The notes: a model not told the origin generated them from the letters alone. A stretch of 48,970 nucleotides of DNA from Spirochaetales bacterium (GCA_016936615.1 JAFGXN010000146.1:1-48970); one strand, 5' to 3'; counted from the stretch's first letter, positions 4,712-48,970 are shown. Numbers and translations are program-made.

Positions 4712-5821
4712 ATGAGCAGAAAACAAAGCAAAAATATAAAGATTTTTTTCACTGGTGGGGGAACAGGTGGCCATGTATATCCTGGTCTTGCAGTTATTGA
4801 TAGCTTGCTAGAGAAGGGGATTTGTAAAATCGATGAGATTGGTTGGATTGGTAACAAACATGGTATTGAAAAAAAGATTGTAGAGAGCCGTGGTATTGCG
4901 TTTTTTAGTATTCCAGCTGGAAAATTACGTCGTTATTTTTCCTTAAAAAATTTTATAGATATCTTTAAGGTGCTAGGTGGGGTTATTAAATCATATTTTA
5001 TCTTATTAAGATTTAAACCTGAGATTCTCTTCTCAAAGGGAGGATTTGTGACTGTGCCTCCAATCTTCTGTTCTAAATTATTGAAGATAACTGGGATAAC
5101 TCATGAATCTGATACAAGTCTAGGTCTTGCAACAAGGATAAACTCTAAGTTTGCAAGCTGTGTTATGACTGCCTACGAGTCGACTGCAGAGAAGGTTGTA
5201 AAGCGACCAGGTCTTGAGGTTGTTGTCTCTGGGAATCCTGTGCGGCGGGAGATTCTTCTTGGTGATGCTGGGAAGGGTTATGAATTTATTGGAAGAAAGC
5301 CTGGGAAAAAAATTATGCTGGTTCTCGGCGGAAGCCTTGGAGCAGTACAAGTTAATCAGCTAATCCATGATAATCTTGATCAACTCTGCCAGAATTGGTT
5401 TGTTGTTCATCAGACTGGTGATAAGAATTTTAAGGAGATTGCTCATCCTAACTACTTTGCAGCACCTTTTTTCTACAAGGAGCTTGCTGATCTTTACGCG
5501 ATAGCAGATCTTGTTGTTAGTCGGGCAGGTGCTGGTACAATCTGGGAGAATGCGATCTGTGGCAAACCTGCGCTACTTATTCCGTTGGGGTCGAAGAATT
5601 CCCGCGGGGATCAGGTTCTGAATGCACAGCTTTTTTACGATAACGGAGCTGCAGATTACCTTTTAGAACCAAGTGCGCAGGAGTTTCTTGAGAAGGTAGA
5701 CTCCTACGTGGGGGAAGATTCCTTGTTGGATAAGATGGCTTTAGCTGCAGGTGAATTTTGTCGGAGAGATTCTTCTGATTTTATTGCTGAATATCTTGGT
5801 TCGGAGCTTAAAGGTGTTTAA
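4712..5821 (+). CDS. murG: UDP-GlcNAc:lipid I GlcNAc transferase MurG
   Basis: MurG adds GlcNAc to undecaprenyl-PP-MurNAc-pentapeptide (lipid I) at the inner face of the membrane, giving lipid II for peptidoglycan. The GT28 signature 'GGGTGGHVYPG' is at residues 15-25 and the C-terminal donor site 'SRAGAGTIWE' is intact. The 369-residue length is typical. I choose ATG 4712 because AGGA ends eight bases before it, whereas the ATG at 4703 overlaps that site. It is first in a plus-strand run with cvpA-like, holB-like and signalling genes. Confidence 0.93.
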   Translation: MSRKQSKNIKIFFTGGGTGGHVYPGLAVIDSLLEKGICKIDEIGWIGNKHGIEKKIVESRGIAFFSIPAGKLRRYFSLKNFIDIFKVLGGVIKSYFILLRFKPEILFSKGGFVTVPPIFCSKLLKITGITHESDTSLGLATRINSKFASCVMTAYESTAEKVVKRPGLEVVVSGNPVRREILLGDAGKGYEFIGRKPGKKIMLVLGGSLGAVQVNQLIHDNLDQLCQNWFVVHQTGDKNFKEIAHPNYFAAPFFYKELADLYAIADLVVSRAGAGTIWENAICGKPALLIPLGSKNSRGDQVLNAQLFYDNGAADYLLEPSAQEFLEKVDSYVGEDSLLDKMALAAGEFCRRDSSDFIAEYLGSELKGV

Positions 5822-6338
5822 TATTTCAGTTTTGAATACATTAGATATTATTTTTATTCTTGTTCTTGTTGTCTTTGGAATTAGAGGCATTGTTAAGGGC
5901 GCAGTCTCTGAGCTGACTTCGCTAGGGATACTGATTCTTAGCATTGTCGGGAGTATTTTTTTGAGAAAACCGATTGCTGATTTTATAAGTAGCATCTTTA
6001 AAATAGAAAAGATTGGGAGTGTTAATCCAGCAGAGATTGTTGCTGTTCTGCTGATTTTTATCTGTCTGTATGCTTTCTTGCGTTTGATTGAGTCGAAGAT
6101 TCATGATGCACTTGAGAGTGTTGATCTCTCGAATTTGGATAAGGCTTTTGGTTTTTTTCTTGGATTGTTAGAGGGGGTCTGTATCTGTTTTTTAGTTGTA
6201 TTCCTGTTAACTCATCAACTTTTCTTCGATGTGAGCCAACTGATTTCAGATAGTAAATTTGCAAGTATTGCAATCAAAATTTTACCTAATACTGATCTCT
6301 ATCTGGAATTTTTTAAAAATAAAGCAATAGGTGTGTAG
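5814..6338 (+). CDS. CvpA-family membrane protein
   Basis: The 174-residue protein starts at GTG 5814, inside the last codons of murG (8-base overlap), with GGAG seven bases upstream. The frame is open further 5', but that part is antisense-like filler within murG. It has about four TM segments, the pattern 'LDIIFILVLVVFGIRGIVKG' at the N terminus, and glycine spacing typical of CvpA/colicin V production proteins. These inner-membrane proteins are linked to envelope integrity in other bacteria. Its position after murG fits an envelope role, but the molecular activity is unknown. Confidence 0.8.
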   Translation: MFNISVLNTLDIIFILVLVVFGIRGIVKGAVSELTSLGILILSIVGSIFLRKPIADFISSIFKIEKIGSVNPAEIVAVLLIFICLYAFLRLIESKIHDALESVDLSNLDKAFGFFLGLLEGVCICFLVVFLLTHQLFFDVSQLISDSKFASIAIKILPNTDLYLEFFKNKAIGV

Positions 6339-41351: not shown

Positions 41352-42719
41352 ATGATAGATAGTAAAGAGTTGCTCGAGGGCTCTCCGTCGTTTTTACTTC
41401 GGCGGTTAGCTGTACCAGCAGCAACTGGTTTGGTTTTTAATACTTTTTTTAATATAACAGATCTTCTTTATGCTAGTAGATACTCCCTTGATGCCTTGTC
41501 AGGTCTGACACTTGCGAGTTCAATTTTCTTCATGTTAATATCAATCTCTGTGGGGCTTGGTTCTGGGCTTTCAGTTCTTATGTCAAATTCCCGCGGCGAG
41601 GGCAGAAATGCAGATGTGAAGATTCTTTTTGTTAATGGATTGTTGATTGCAATATTCTTGACAGTTCTAATCCTCTCGTTCTTTTTCCCATTTATCGATG
41701 ATCTGGTATTGCTTTTCACAGGTGACAAGTCGTCGGGAATTCTAGAAGCTGAAGAGTATTTGAGAGTGATTGTCTGGGGTTTTTTCTTTTTTATGTTTAA
41801 TGGTATTCTGAATTCTGTGCTTGCATCTTCTGGTGATACGAAAACCTATAGAAATTTTCTCATGGCTGGATTCTTGATAAATATTATTTTAAACTACTTT
41901 TTCATGTACGGAGTTGGAGGATTTGAGGGATTAGGCGTTGCTGGTGTTGCATTATCGACAGTTCTAATTCAGGTAATTGGTAGTTGTTTTCTGCTTGTTA
42001 AGGTCGCCCAATCTGGTGTGTTTGGTCAGAGGGTCAAGTTTAGCCTGGTTAGCTTTTCTTCTTTAAAAAAAATTATTCTCTTTGGTTTGCCTGTCTTCAT
42101 AAATTTAATGTCAATATCGCTATTTCAGATTTTGATTCAGTTCTTTCTGTACCGGGATTCACTGTCGGGGCAGGCAATTGCAGGTTATGGAGCAGGAACA
42201 AGGGTCGAGCAAATTGTCTTGTTGCCGTTTCTGGGACTTTCTACCGCGGTTGTTCTGGCTACTAGTACTTGTTTCGGAGCAAAGAGGTTTGCTAGAATCA
42301 AGGAGTTTGTTATATCAGCCTTTCAGGATAGTTTCTTGCTGATGATAATTCTTTTTGTTCCGGTTATTATCTTTAGAAAGGATTTAGCTCTGTTTTTTAC
42401 TAACGATGAGGTTTCAGCTGGTATTGCTGTAGTTTATATTTTTTTCTCATTTATAGGTTTTTACTTTAATTTTATTGCCCTGATTCTTGCAACCGTCTTG
42501 CATAGTTTGAAGCGTCCGCTTTCTGCTGCAATAATCTACTTTGCAAATAATCTTTTTCTTCCATTTGTTATTGTCTTTATTTTCTGGGTCTTTAATCATA
42601 CCGACATCTACTATCTTTTTGCTGGATTAGCTATTGGGAAGGTTATATCAGGTCTAATCTCAATTATTTGCTTAAAGGTTGTATTTGTCTCTCTTGATAA
42701 GTTAGAAGAGGGGCTTTAG
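41352..42719 (+). CDS. MATE-family multidrug/Na+ antiporter
   Basis: This 455-residue inner-membrane protein has twelve predicted TM segments and the MATE pattern: 'LAVPAATGLVFNTFFNITDLLY', 'GLGSGLSVLMS', 'ASSGDTKTYRNFLMAGFLIN' and, in the second half, 'GYGAGTRVEQI'. MATE proteins export cationic drugs or metabolites against Na+ or H+. It starts three bases after sppA, so translation is coupled. Its last four bases overlap the end of the convergent hydrogenase-like gene. Confidence 0.9.
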   Translation: MIDSKELLEGSPSFLLRRLAVPAATGLVFNTFFNITDLLYASRYSLDALSGLTLASSIFFMLISISVGLGSGLSVLMSNSRGEGRNADVKILFVNGLLIAIFLTVLILSFFFPFIDDLVLLFTGDKSSGILEAEEYLRVIVWGFFFFMFNGILNSVLASSGDTKTYRNFLMAGFLINIILNYFFMYGVGGFEGLGVAGVALSTVLIQVIGSCFLLVKVAQSGVFGQRVKFSLVSFSSLKKIILFGLPVFINLMSISLFQILIQFFLYRDSLSGQAIAGYGAGTRVEQIVLLPFLGLSTAVVLATSTCFGAKRFARIKEFVISAFQDSFLLMIILFVPVIIFRKDLALFFTNDEVSAGIAVVYIFFSFIGFYFNFIALILATVLHSLKRPLSAAIIYFANNLFLPFVIVFIFWVFNHTDIYYLFAGLAIGKVISGLISIICLKVVFVSLDKLEEGL

Positions 42720-43999
42720 TTGTTGTCGATTGGTGGAGGCATTTTCTCTTGCAGTTCCATCATAGAGTTTGTCAGCTTTCTGATTCGCTCTCTGAGGACG
42801 AAGACACAGTAAGTAATTTCAGCTTTTCCTCTCACAATATCCTCGGCAAGCGCCTTGCATGTCGGAGCGCCACAAGCACTACAATCAAGCCCTGGTAACT
42901 GTTGCTGAATCATCTGCATCTTCTGTATCTTCTCAATTGCTTCGCCAAAATCGTCTGAGAGCTTCATTATTTGCCGTGGTTCAATCTTTGTATCCCAATC
43001 AAGGCGTATTTTTTCAAGATTATCTGGCTCGATAACACTCTCTGGTAGATCAAGGATTTTTGCAGTGACAATACTCTTGCAGATATATGGGTTCTCTACT
43101 GTCAGAGCTCCACCCACACAGCCTCCAGGGCAGGCCATTACCTCGACATAGTCAATCTCGTCTAGCCGTCCATCTGCAATCTTTTCAAGAACCTTCGAGA
43201 CATTATTAATCCCATCCACAGCAACATAGGAAATTGGCTTCACCGCCTCAGTCTCACCATCTCGAACTGCCCACGATACTCCACGACCAGAAGCGCTTGC
43301 AAGGTGTTCAATCTCGGTATTGCTTGACATCGCTTCAAGCAGAGGAAGGTATATATCCTTAATTGATAATACTCGATCTACAGTGCTAGAATCATGTCCA
43401 AGTGGAGCCTTTACACTTGTTATCTTTGCAGGACAAGGACTTATGAAAAAAATTCCCAAATCTTTAATATCTTTGTACTTCTCTCTGACAATTTGCGCCG
43501 CAATCTCCATCGGAGACTCAACTCTGATAATATTGTCAAGAAGCTCTGGGTATTTTACCTGGACAAGACGGACACAAGCAGGGCATGAGGAAGATATTAG
43601 AGGTTTAGGTTTGTCAGGTTTCGCAAGCTCTTGTATTATTCTATCTGAGACATATTCAGCCGCCTTTGCTACCTCAAAAACTTCGTCAAATCCAAGGTGT
43701 TTTAATCCTGTCAGTATTCTATCAATTGAGAATCTTTTGTCAAATTGTCCATAGAGGGTCGGAGCAGGAATTGCAACCTTAAACTGAAATTTTTCAAGAT
43801 CTCTCATCGAATCTGGCAGAGCTATCTTTGCATGATGGGGACATCGTCTAATACATTCCCCGCAATCTATACACCTGTCTGTGATAATACGAGCCTTTCC
43901 TTTAGATACTCTTATCGCTTCGGTAGGGCAGTATGTAATACAATTTGTGCATCCCTTGCATAAATCTTTGTTAAGTGCTACTGAATGACTTATTTCCAT
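42716..43999 (-). CDS. [FeFe]-hydrogenase-like (putative sensory HydS-type) iron-sulfur protein
   Basis: The 427-residue protein has, in order, two 4Fe-4S ferredoxin motifs (Cys 14-24 and 43-53), an H-cluster domain, and a C-terminal 4Fe-4S motif (Cys 373, 376, 381, 398). All four H-cluster-ligating cysteines are present: Cys139 in 'SSSCPAC', Cys189 in 'SPCPAK', and Cys290/294 in 'VMACPGGCVGG'. The proton-transfer Cys of catalytic enzymes is Ser138, and the Trp after the first motif is Cys. This points to a sensory or low-activity group C/D type. The small ATPase gene upstream probably shares its operon. AGGAGG precedes the ATG. Confidence 0.85.
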   Translation of the reverse strand: MEISHSVALNKDLCKGCTNCITYCPTEAIRVSKGKARIITDRCIDCGECIRRCPHHAKIALPDSMRDLEKFQFKVAIPAPTLYGQFDKRFSIDRILTGLKHLGFDEVFEVAKAAEYVSDRIIQELAKPDKPKPLISSSCPACVRLVQVKYPELLDNIIRVESPMEIAAQIVREKYKDIKDLGIFFISPCPAKITSVKAPLGHDSSTVDRVLSIKDIYLPLLEAMSSNTEIEHLASASGRGVSWAVRDGETEAVKPISYVAVDGINNVSKVLEKIADGRLDEIDYVEVMACPGGCVGGALTVENPYICKSIVTAKILDLPESVIEPDNLEKIRLDWDTKIEPRQIMKLSDDFGEAIEKIQKMQMIQQQLPGLDCSACGAPTCKALAEDIVRGKAEITYCVFVLRERIRKLTNSMMELQEKMPPPIDNN

Positions 44000-44012
44000 A
44001 TATACTTCCTCC

Positions 44013-44441
44013 TTAGCCTTTGGTTAAATCTATCTTAATTGTTACAGTTGTTCCTTCTCCCACAACGGAATTAATTGTCAATTCGTCGCTATTTTTCTTT
44101 ATATTAGGAAGTCCCATTCCTGCACCAAATCCGATCTCGCGGATATGATCAGGCGCTGTTGAGTAACCTTCTTGCATAGCTAAATCTATATCTGGAATTC
44201 CAGGCCCTTTATCTTCGAATCTTATTAAAATTGTTTCGGGGGAAATTTCGACAAAGCCTTCGCCGCCTCCGCCGTGGATTACAAGATTTACCTCAGCTTC
44301 ATACATTGAGACTGCTGTTCTTTTTATAGCTTGAGCTGGTAATCCAAGAGTTTTGAGAAGCTTCTTTATCTCGCTTGAAGCCTCACCCATTGAGTCAATC
44401 TTATCACCTGCTATTTCGAAATGCTTACTTATTTTACTCAT
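44013..44441 (-). CDS. GHKL ATPase domain protein (anti-sigma factor-like)
   Basis: This 142-residue stand-alone ATPase domain resembles RsbW/SpoIIAB-type anti-sigma kinases. The N box is 'YEAEVNLVIHG', the G1 box 'EDKGPGIPD' and the G2 box 'GFGAGMGLPNI'. It lies 13 bases upstream of the hydrogenase-like gene. Similar pairs accompany sensory hydrogenases in other anaerobes, so it may relay redox or H2 status. I place the start at ATG 44441, because the GTG at 44459 would lie upstream of the predicted -10 element. Confidence 0.8.
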   Translation of the reverse strand: MSKISKHFEIAGDKIDSMGEASSEIKKLLKTLGLPAQAIKRTAVSMYEAEVNLVIHGGGGEGFVEISPETILIRFEDKGPGIPDIDLAMQEGYSTAPDHIREIGFGAGMGLPNIKKNSDELTINSVVGEGTTVTIKIDLTKG

Positions 44442-44449
44442 ATTTAAAT

Positions 44450-44478
44450 AATATATCACAACCTTAGTCAGACGACAA
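44450..44478 (-). promoter_or_regulatory. Promoter predicting a leaderless transcript for the GHKL ATPase gene
   Basis: On the minus strand, TTGTCG (44478-44473), exactly 17 bases and TATATT (44455-44450). Only eight bases separate the -10 element from ATG 44441, and no Shine-Dalgarno lies before that ATG. Confidence 0.5.
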
Positions 44479-44486
44479 GAAAAAGA

Positions 44487-44514
44487 TAAAAAAACCTCCG
44501 ACTTTTGCCGGAGG
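44487..44514 (-). terminator. Rho-independent terminator of enolase
   Basis: Read on the minus strand, CCTCCG (44514-44509) pairs with CGGAGG (44500-44495) and is followed by a run of T residues. It lies 13 bases beyond the enolase stop. Confidence 0.9.
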
Positions 44515-44526
44515 CTGAATTAGAAA

Positions 44527-48453: not shown

Positions 48454-48970
48454 ATGCCTGATCTTAATAAAATAAGACTATTTGAGAAAAAGATTCAATC
48501 GCTAGCTGGTGAGCCTGAGTATTTAGCTGAGAAAGGAGAAACTCTTCACTCTGTGGCTGATACGAAGAAGGATGATCCATCAGCTGATTTATCAGATTTA
48601 TTTGATGAAGATGTTTCTGGAGCAGAAAATAATAAAAAAGACTCATTGAAAGATATATTTTCGGGGATGGATGATCTCCTTTCTCCGGATGATTTTGCTA
48701 CGTCGTTAGATACTATTGAGGAACAGGATGACTCTGAAGATGTAGATCTATCTGATCTATTTGGCAGTGAAGATGAAAGCTTCGAGGAGACAAGCCTCAC
48801 CGACAGTGAAGATTCGAGCGGCGAAGATGGAGATGACCTCTCAGATCTATTTGGCAGTGAAGATGAAAGCTTCGAAGAGACAAGCCTCACCGACAGTGAA
48901 GATTCGAGCCCCGAAGATGGAGATGACCTTTCAGCTCTATTTGGCAGTGAAGATGAAAGCTTCGAGGAGA
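48454..48970 (+). CDS. Acidic tandem-repeat protein, 3'-truncated by window edge
   Basis: The frame from ATG 48454 (TAGGAAG upstream) stays open to the end of the window, so only the first 172 residues are visible. There is no signal peptide or TM segment, so the start looks cytoplasmic. After about 40 residues the protein becomes very acidic, with 'DLSDLF' recurring. From 48748 it carries 30-residue repeats (core 'LFGSEDESFEETSLTDSEDS') that are almost identical at DNA level. I do not recognise the family. It may be a disordered linker ahead of a folded C-terminal domain beyond the window. Confidence 0.8.
   Translation, partial: MPDLNKIRLFEKKIQSLAGEPEYLAEKGETLHSVADTKKDDPSADLSDLFDEDVSGAENNKKDSLKDIFSGMDDLLSPDDFATSLDTIEEQDDSEDVDLSDLFGSEDESFEETSLTDSEDSSGEDGDDLSDLFGSEDESFEETSLTDSEDSSPEDGDDLSALFGSEDESFEE
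48748..48970 (+). repeat. 90-bp in-frame tandem repeats
   Basis: Units start at 48748, 48838 and 48928 (the last cut by the window edge). Each is 90 bases long and they differ at only a few positions. Each encodes 30 residues rich in Asp, Glu and Ser. Confidence 0.93.

Follow-up and report, generated by a model that had tools for sequence, protein, structure and literature searches.

Two adjoining genes on the minus strand were identified in the window, by which we mean the whole 48,970-nucleotide stretch of DNA analysed, from a Spirochaetales bacterium (GCA_016936615.1, JAFGXN010000146.1:1-48970; Table 1). The downstream gene, hydS, encodes a putative sensory [FeFe]-hydrogenase (HydS), and the gene upstream encodes a small ATPase of the GHKL type (HATPase). 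The two are separated by exactly 13 bases, and both reading frames and the gap were as a preceding sequence-only reading had described them. The HATPase can also be read from an ATG at 44441, giving 142 aa; this is probably the true start, as it fits the starts of related proteins better than the GTG. The 3′ end of hydS overlaps a convergent MatE gene by 4 bases, and an enolase gene, closed by a terminator-like hairpin, sits upstream of the HATPase gene. The -10 element of a promoter-like match stops 8 bases short of the HATPase ATG. Sites of this kind were no more numerous than in shuffled sequences and the match is therefore weak; if genuine, it would give a leaderless HATPase-hydS transcript. 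Position 44478, the upper limit of the range given earlier for the pair, is not a gene end but the 5′ edge of this match. Elsewhere in the window, at 48754-48970, a 90-bp tandem repeat (2.4 copies, 95% match) reaches past the contig end and, in coding frame, gives the acidic repeats DLSDLFGSEDESFEE.

Table 1. Features of the hydS locus, in window coordinates.
Feature	Position	Strand	Evidence
HydS, group D (M2e) putative sensory [FeFe]-hydrogenase	42716..43999	-	ORF of 427 aa with ATG start; Pfam; D clade 100/100
C-terminal FeS domain of HydS, CX2CX4CX16C (C373, C376, C381, C398), residues 373-398	42800..42898	-	Pfam FeS; 99/99 relatives
H-domain of HydS, residues 75-298	43106..43777	-	Fe_hyd_lg_C, 140.9 bits
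Group D proton-path residues E249, D262, E286 of HydS	43142..43255	-	Equivalent to TamHydS E252, D265, E289
HydS residues 138-142, S-C-P-A-C	43574..43588	-	Ser138 at C299 (CpI) position; Cys142 at W303 position
N-terminal [4Fe-4S] motifs of HydS	43829..43975	-	Fer4_10/Fer4 matches; C14, C17, C20, C24, C43, C46, C49, C53
SpoIIAB/RsbW-like GHKL ATPase (HATPase)	44013..44459	-	148 aa from GTG; HATPase_c; SpoIIAB fold
Promoter-like match, TTGTCG-17-TATATT	44450..44478	-	9/12 match; weak
Intrinsic-terminator-like hairpin closing the upstream enolase gene	44493..44516	-	10-bp stem and T-tract

Pfam matches in HydS comprised two N-terminal Fer4 motifs, the large H-domain and a C-terminal FeS domain. 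The eight cysteines of the N-terminal motifs were each conserved in at least 95% of 99 relatives, and the four H-cluster ligands recognised earlier (C139, C189, C290 and C294) were invariant in all 99. An AlphaFold2 model of the protein (mean pLDDT 89.0) matched group A [FeFe]-hydrogenase structures across the F- and H-domains. Alignment also bore out the earlier observation that Ser138 replaces the proton-transfer Cys and that Cys142 replaces the neighbouring Trp. Among the 99 group D relatives, the position of CpI C299 was occupied by Ala (73), Ser (17), Tyr (5), Phe (3) or Asn (1) and never by Cys, so the loss of this residue is a feature of the class and not a peculiarity of the window protein. 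Ser was found mainly in spirochaete relatives. Cys142 occurred only in the window HydS, but since the usual residue there is Val or Ile and not Trp, the change is a minor one. The combination was thus not retained as a special active site, only Cys142 being unique.

The residues that carry protons in group D were also kept. The numbering of TamHydS, the group D (M2e) protein of Thermoanaerobacter mathranii, was transferred to HydS by residue spacing (PMC10407848), and the spacing was exact. E249, D262 and E286 were conserved in 97, 91 and 98 of the 99 sequences, respectively, while the variable TamHydS position S249 is an Arg (R246) in HydS. Further towards the C-terminus, TamHydS D378, C379, E392, D393 and C404 (PMC13104023) correspond to D372, C373, E386, D387 and C398. 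The position of CpI M353 was Ser or Thr in 98 of the 99 sequences and is S187 in the window HydS. TamHydS, which has Ala at the lost-Cys position, is a slow reversible hydrogenase that uses a Glu/Glu/Asp path (PMC10407848). Because it turns over without the Cys, and because the Glu path is kept in HydS, loss of the Cys does not imply a non-turnover enzyme. The sequence-only reading of a “sensory or non-turnover” hydrogenase is therefore supported in its first half, as a sensory-type and not a group A protein, by the tree and the marker residues, and not in its second.

In a tree of 75 sequences the window HydS fell within a 50-member D clade; the group A HydA proteins, group B and the group C proteins, which are fused to PAS or kinase domains, lay outside it. 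TamHydS was not part of this tree, and the clade was tied to the group D (M2e) name by its marker residues and operon type. Group labels in the tree rest on NCBIfam, domain make-up and operon position; by NCBIfam, the HydA of the same genome scored over the group A cut-off and a 496-aa protein over the B1 cut-off. HydS has the four H-cluster cysteines, no C299 equivalent and S187 in place of M353, together with the E249/E286/D262 path, two N-terminal [4Fe-4S] motifs, the CX2CX4CX16C motif and no PAS match. One usual but not strict trait of group D was lacking, as HydABC is encoded on contig C76 and not beside the pair; several spirochaete relatives likewise have no HydABC genes next to theirs. 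Phylogenetic placement had been proposed as a check, and catalytic group A can be set aside on Ser138, on a TIGR02512 score of 106.7 bits where the cut-off is 405.95 and on the position of HydS outside the A clade. Group C (M2f) was rejected because Pfam detected no PAS domain in HydS, whereas group C proteins have one behind the C-terminal FeS motif, and the protein lies outside the C clade. By these sequence characters, the window HydS has diverged yet conforms to the previously described group D (M2e) class, whose members are putative sensors.

TamHydS is its closest described counterpart in the comparisons made here (PMC8163306, PMC10407848, PMC13104023), sharing the domain order, the lack of PAS, the lost C299, the change of M353 to Ser, the E/E/D spacing and a HATPase neighbour. 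The two differ in Ser138 versus Ala137, R246 versus S249 and Y397 versus D403, and the window HydS, unlike TamHydS, has Cys142 at the Trp position and lies outside any hydABC operon. The M2e genes of Clostridia that lie upstream of trimeric bifurcating hydrogenases, such as Cthe_0335, belong to the same class and have a kinase-like companion as here (PMC3561251); they are linked to HydABC in the Firmicutes loci examined, whereas the module is split in the window genome. The group C (M2f) protein TmHydS (PMC10055695) is also putatively sensory and shares the lost C299 and the C-terminal FeS motif, but it is fused to PAS and belongs to a separate clade; the window genome encodes a group C protein of its own, on contig C36.

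No hydA, hydE, hydF or hydG was seen in the window, as stated before, but all were found elsewhere in the genome. HydF (contig C14), HydG (C129) and HydE (C122) all scored over curated cut-offs, and the presence of these maturases makes assembly of an H-cluster possible. The check for maturases and HydABC proposed by the sequence-only reading thus found the full set, and neither of the two outcomes that would have refuted that reading came about. The HydA of the HydABC operon on C76 is accompanied by a divergent Rex-like gene. Besides the window HydS, four other H-domain proteins were present in the assembly. On C36 (L015:1216-5817), a group B hydrogenase, a Trx-like 2Fe-2S protein, a SpoIIE phosphatase and a PAS-containing group C HydS form one operon, which resembles the published hfsABCD arrangement (PMC11837493). 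On C163 (L017:5660-7846), a 728-aa fusion joins two [4Fe-4S] motifs, a divergent H-domain, an FeS domain and a methyl-accepting (MCP) domain. It formed a long branch near group C and is possibly a cytoplasmic H2 or redox chemoreceptor.

The HATPase matched Pfam HATPase_c with 44.7 bits. The solved fold nearest to its AlphaFold2 model (mean pLDDT 90.4) was SpoIIAB (1til, TM 0.80/0.85), with RsbW lower in the list. Its N-box residues, E54 and N58, are the counterparts of E46 and N50 in an alignment with SpoIIAB and were conserved in at least 95% of relatives, which makes ATP binding and phosphoryl transfer plausible. SpoIIAB was also its best NCBIfam match, yet at 52.6 bits against a cut-off of 135 the family threshold was not reached. 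The protein shares the GHKL fold and the N-box Glu/Asn with the anti-sigma Ser kinases SpoIIAB and RsbW (1til, 1th8, 6m36) but differs from them in its ATP-lid, in an identity of only about 24% and in having no STAS or sigma partner in its neighbourhood. At the relatives' loci, no STAS, SpoIIE or sigma-factor gene was a conserved neighbour of the pair, and partners elsewhere in the genomes are possible; the conserved companions were DRTGG, PHP and HydABC genes. The earlier term “anti-sigma-like” therefore describes no more than a likeness of fold. The window genome contains 7 STAS and 6 SpoIIE matches, one SpoIIE adjoining the group C HydS, but the pair has none of them in linkage. On C14, SpoIIE and STAS genes lie within a few kb of hydF, which looks incidental.

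A histidine-kinase-like ATPase beside TamHydS has been noted before (PMC8163306), and earlier papers described group D sensors, the kinase-like gene that accompanies them and HydABC genes in their proximity (PMC3561251, PMC8163306). In our survey, all 18 relatives taken from related genomes had the HATPase gene immediately upstream of hydS. A script recovered the same arrangement in 76 of 80 named loci; three of the four misses were HATPase genes overlapping over-called HydS starts and the fourth lay at a contig edge, so that inspection raised the count to 79 of 79 testable loci. All 97 testable relatives thus had the HATPase directly upstream. Conversely, among 61 genomes searched, the stand-alone ATPase was present in exactly the 19 that have a group D HydS; in 60 related genomes it was seen with HydS only. 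Two apparent exceptions without HydS (genomes G012 and G056) were both CBS fusions cut by contig ends. HATPase and HydS are strictly co-inherited and obligately linked, which supports the proposal that the ATPase is the partner of HydS.

Other members of the HATPase subfamily, found with the same profile (E about 1e-45), were proteins of about 310 aa in which two CBS domains precede the ATPase. CBS pairs are typical sensors of adenine nucleotides, that is, of energy state. The fused form is part of a cassette in the order DRTGG - [CBS-CBS-HATPase] - DRTGG - PHP, which in several genomes lies beside HydABC or a Rex-like gene. Such fusions were found in cassettes at L172:4027-5016, L175:4853-5779 and L181:4830-5768, and some of these adjoin both HydABC and a Rex-like gene. 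The Firmicutes group D operon has the order DRTGG-HATPase-HydS-DRTGG-PHP-HydC-HATPase2-Trx-2Fe2S-HydB-HydA. In 44 non-spirochaete loci with ample flanks, DRTGG was within reach in 40, PHP in 37 and at least one hydABC gene in 32. HATPase relatives share the DRTGG/PHP cassette even at loci without HydS, and two genomes from the family to which the window genome belongs encode the CBS-fused ATPase and lack a group D HydS. The window genome carries the module in three pieces, with HATPase-HydS on contig C93, DRTGG-PHP on C25 and HydABC on C76. The DRTGG-PHP pair on C25 (L184:5139-6186; DRTGG at 5860-6186, PHP at 5139-5867) is an orphan, whose homologues in other genomes adjoin HydS or CBS-HATPase. 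In the ATPase tree, stand-alone and CBS-fused forms were not cleanly separated (support 76/76). HydS seems to take the place of the CBS pair, so that one SpoIIAB-like transmitter would serve two kinds of input. Neither this exchange nor the strict linkage of HydS and HATPase was found in the literature searched, a partial, open-access selection, which likewise yielded nothing joining CBS, DRTGG or PHP to a hydrogenase and no account of CBS-CBS-HATPase fusions.

We suggest, with a probability of roughly 0.6, that the two genes form a sensor-transmitter unit in which the state of HydS is passed to the HATPase, with output to DRTGG/PHP that ultimately tunes HydABC. HydS would bind H2 at its H-cluster, which has a slow Glu-based proton path, or have its poise set there by reduced ferredoxin. 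Either input would alter the state of the H-cluster and the N-terminal clusters and shift the conformation of HydS. This electronic or conformational state may reach the SpoIIAB-like HATPase by protein contact, and bound HydS would change its ATP-dependent, probably Ser/Thr-kinase, activity. The HATPase would then act on the DRTGG/PHP branch and finally tune the bifurcating HydABC hydrogenase. H2 alters the secondary structure of TamHydS without reducing its C-terminal cluster, which fits a conformational signal better than an electron relay; as that cluster keeps its redox state under H2, the obvious electron route to the output is doubtful (PMC13104023). Against the model, neighbouring genes at the relatives' loci, among which neither STAS nor sigma nor phosphatase genes are conserved, do not point to the substrate of the HATPase, the ATPase tree fails to part the two forms cleanly, and the link to HydABC rests on Firmicutes operons, because the spirochaete pair often stands alone. 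A narrower version, which we put forward tentatively, is that HydS regulates a Ser/Thr kinase as an H2-gated subunit, plugged in instead of the CBS nucleotide-sensing pair, and that the kinase feeds a DRTGG/PHP pathway controlling hydrogen metabolism. Such a route was not described for hydrogenases in the literature searched, which was partial and open-access.

Alternatively, the signal could be the redox state of the cell and not dissolved H2: reduced ferredoxin would be read via the N-terminal clusters, and the H-cluster would gauge electrons in both directions. The [4Fe-4S] motifs at the N-terminus are both intact, the CBS pair that otherwise provides the input of this ATPase is of a type that typically senses energy state, and TamHydS, reversible and biased to H+ reduction, can equilibrate with a donor (PMC8163306). 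A cofactor needing three maturases would, however, be costly for a mere ferredoxin gauge, and the raised H2 affinity of group D (PMC8163306) also speaks against this explanation, which we consider rather unlikely. It is improbable that HydS simply works as a slow hydrogenase that cycles H2 or trims the redox balance, served by a chaperone-like or assembly ATPase and without signalling: TamHydS is catalytically competent (PMC8163306) and the window HydS conserves the proton path, but the group D rates measured are very low, the ATPase has a regulatory SpoIIAB-type fold, and its relatives carry CBS sensors and the DRTGG/PHP cassette without HydS. A true anti-sigma switch, in which the ATPase sequesters a sigma factor, a STAS anti-anti-sigma factor releases it and SpoIIE phosphatases antagonise, is most improbable, since the SpoIIAB-like fold and family match and the STAS and SpoIIE genes of the genome, including the one beside the group C HydS, are outweighed by the sub-threshold SpoIIAB score, the different ATP-lid and the lack of a conserved STAS, SpoIIE or sigma neighbour.

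How group D hydrogenases, which lack PAS, transfer their signal is a stated open question (PMC8163306, PMC13104023). Two findings, that HydS and HATPase are strictly linked and that HydS is exchanged for CBS, go beyond the published description, and their interest lies in the hypothesis of output that they provide: they name a specific partner and, in DRTGG and PHP, candidate downstream proteins, so that the question of the signal becomes testable with a few purified proteins. The different sensor of the HATPase relatives, a CBS pair, suggests how a hydrogen signal could be relayed.
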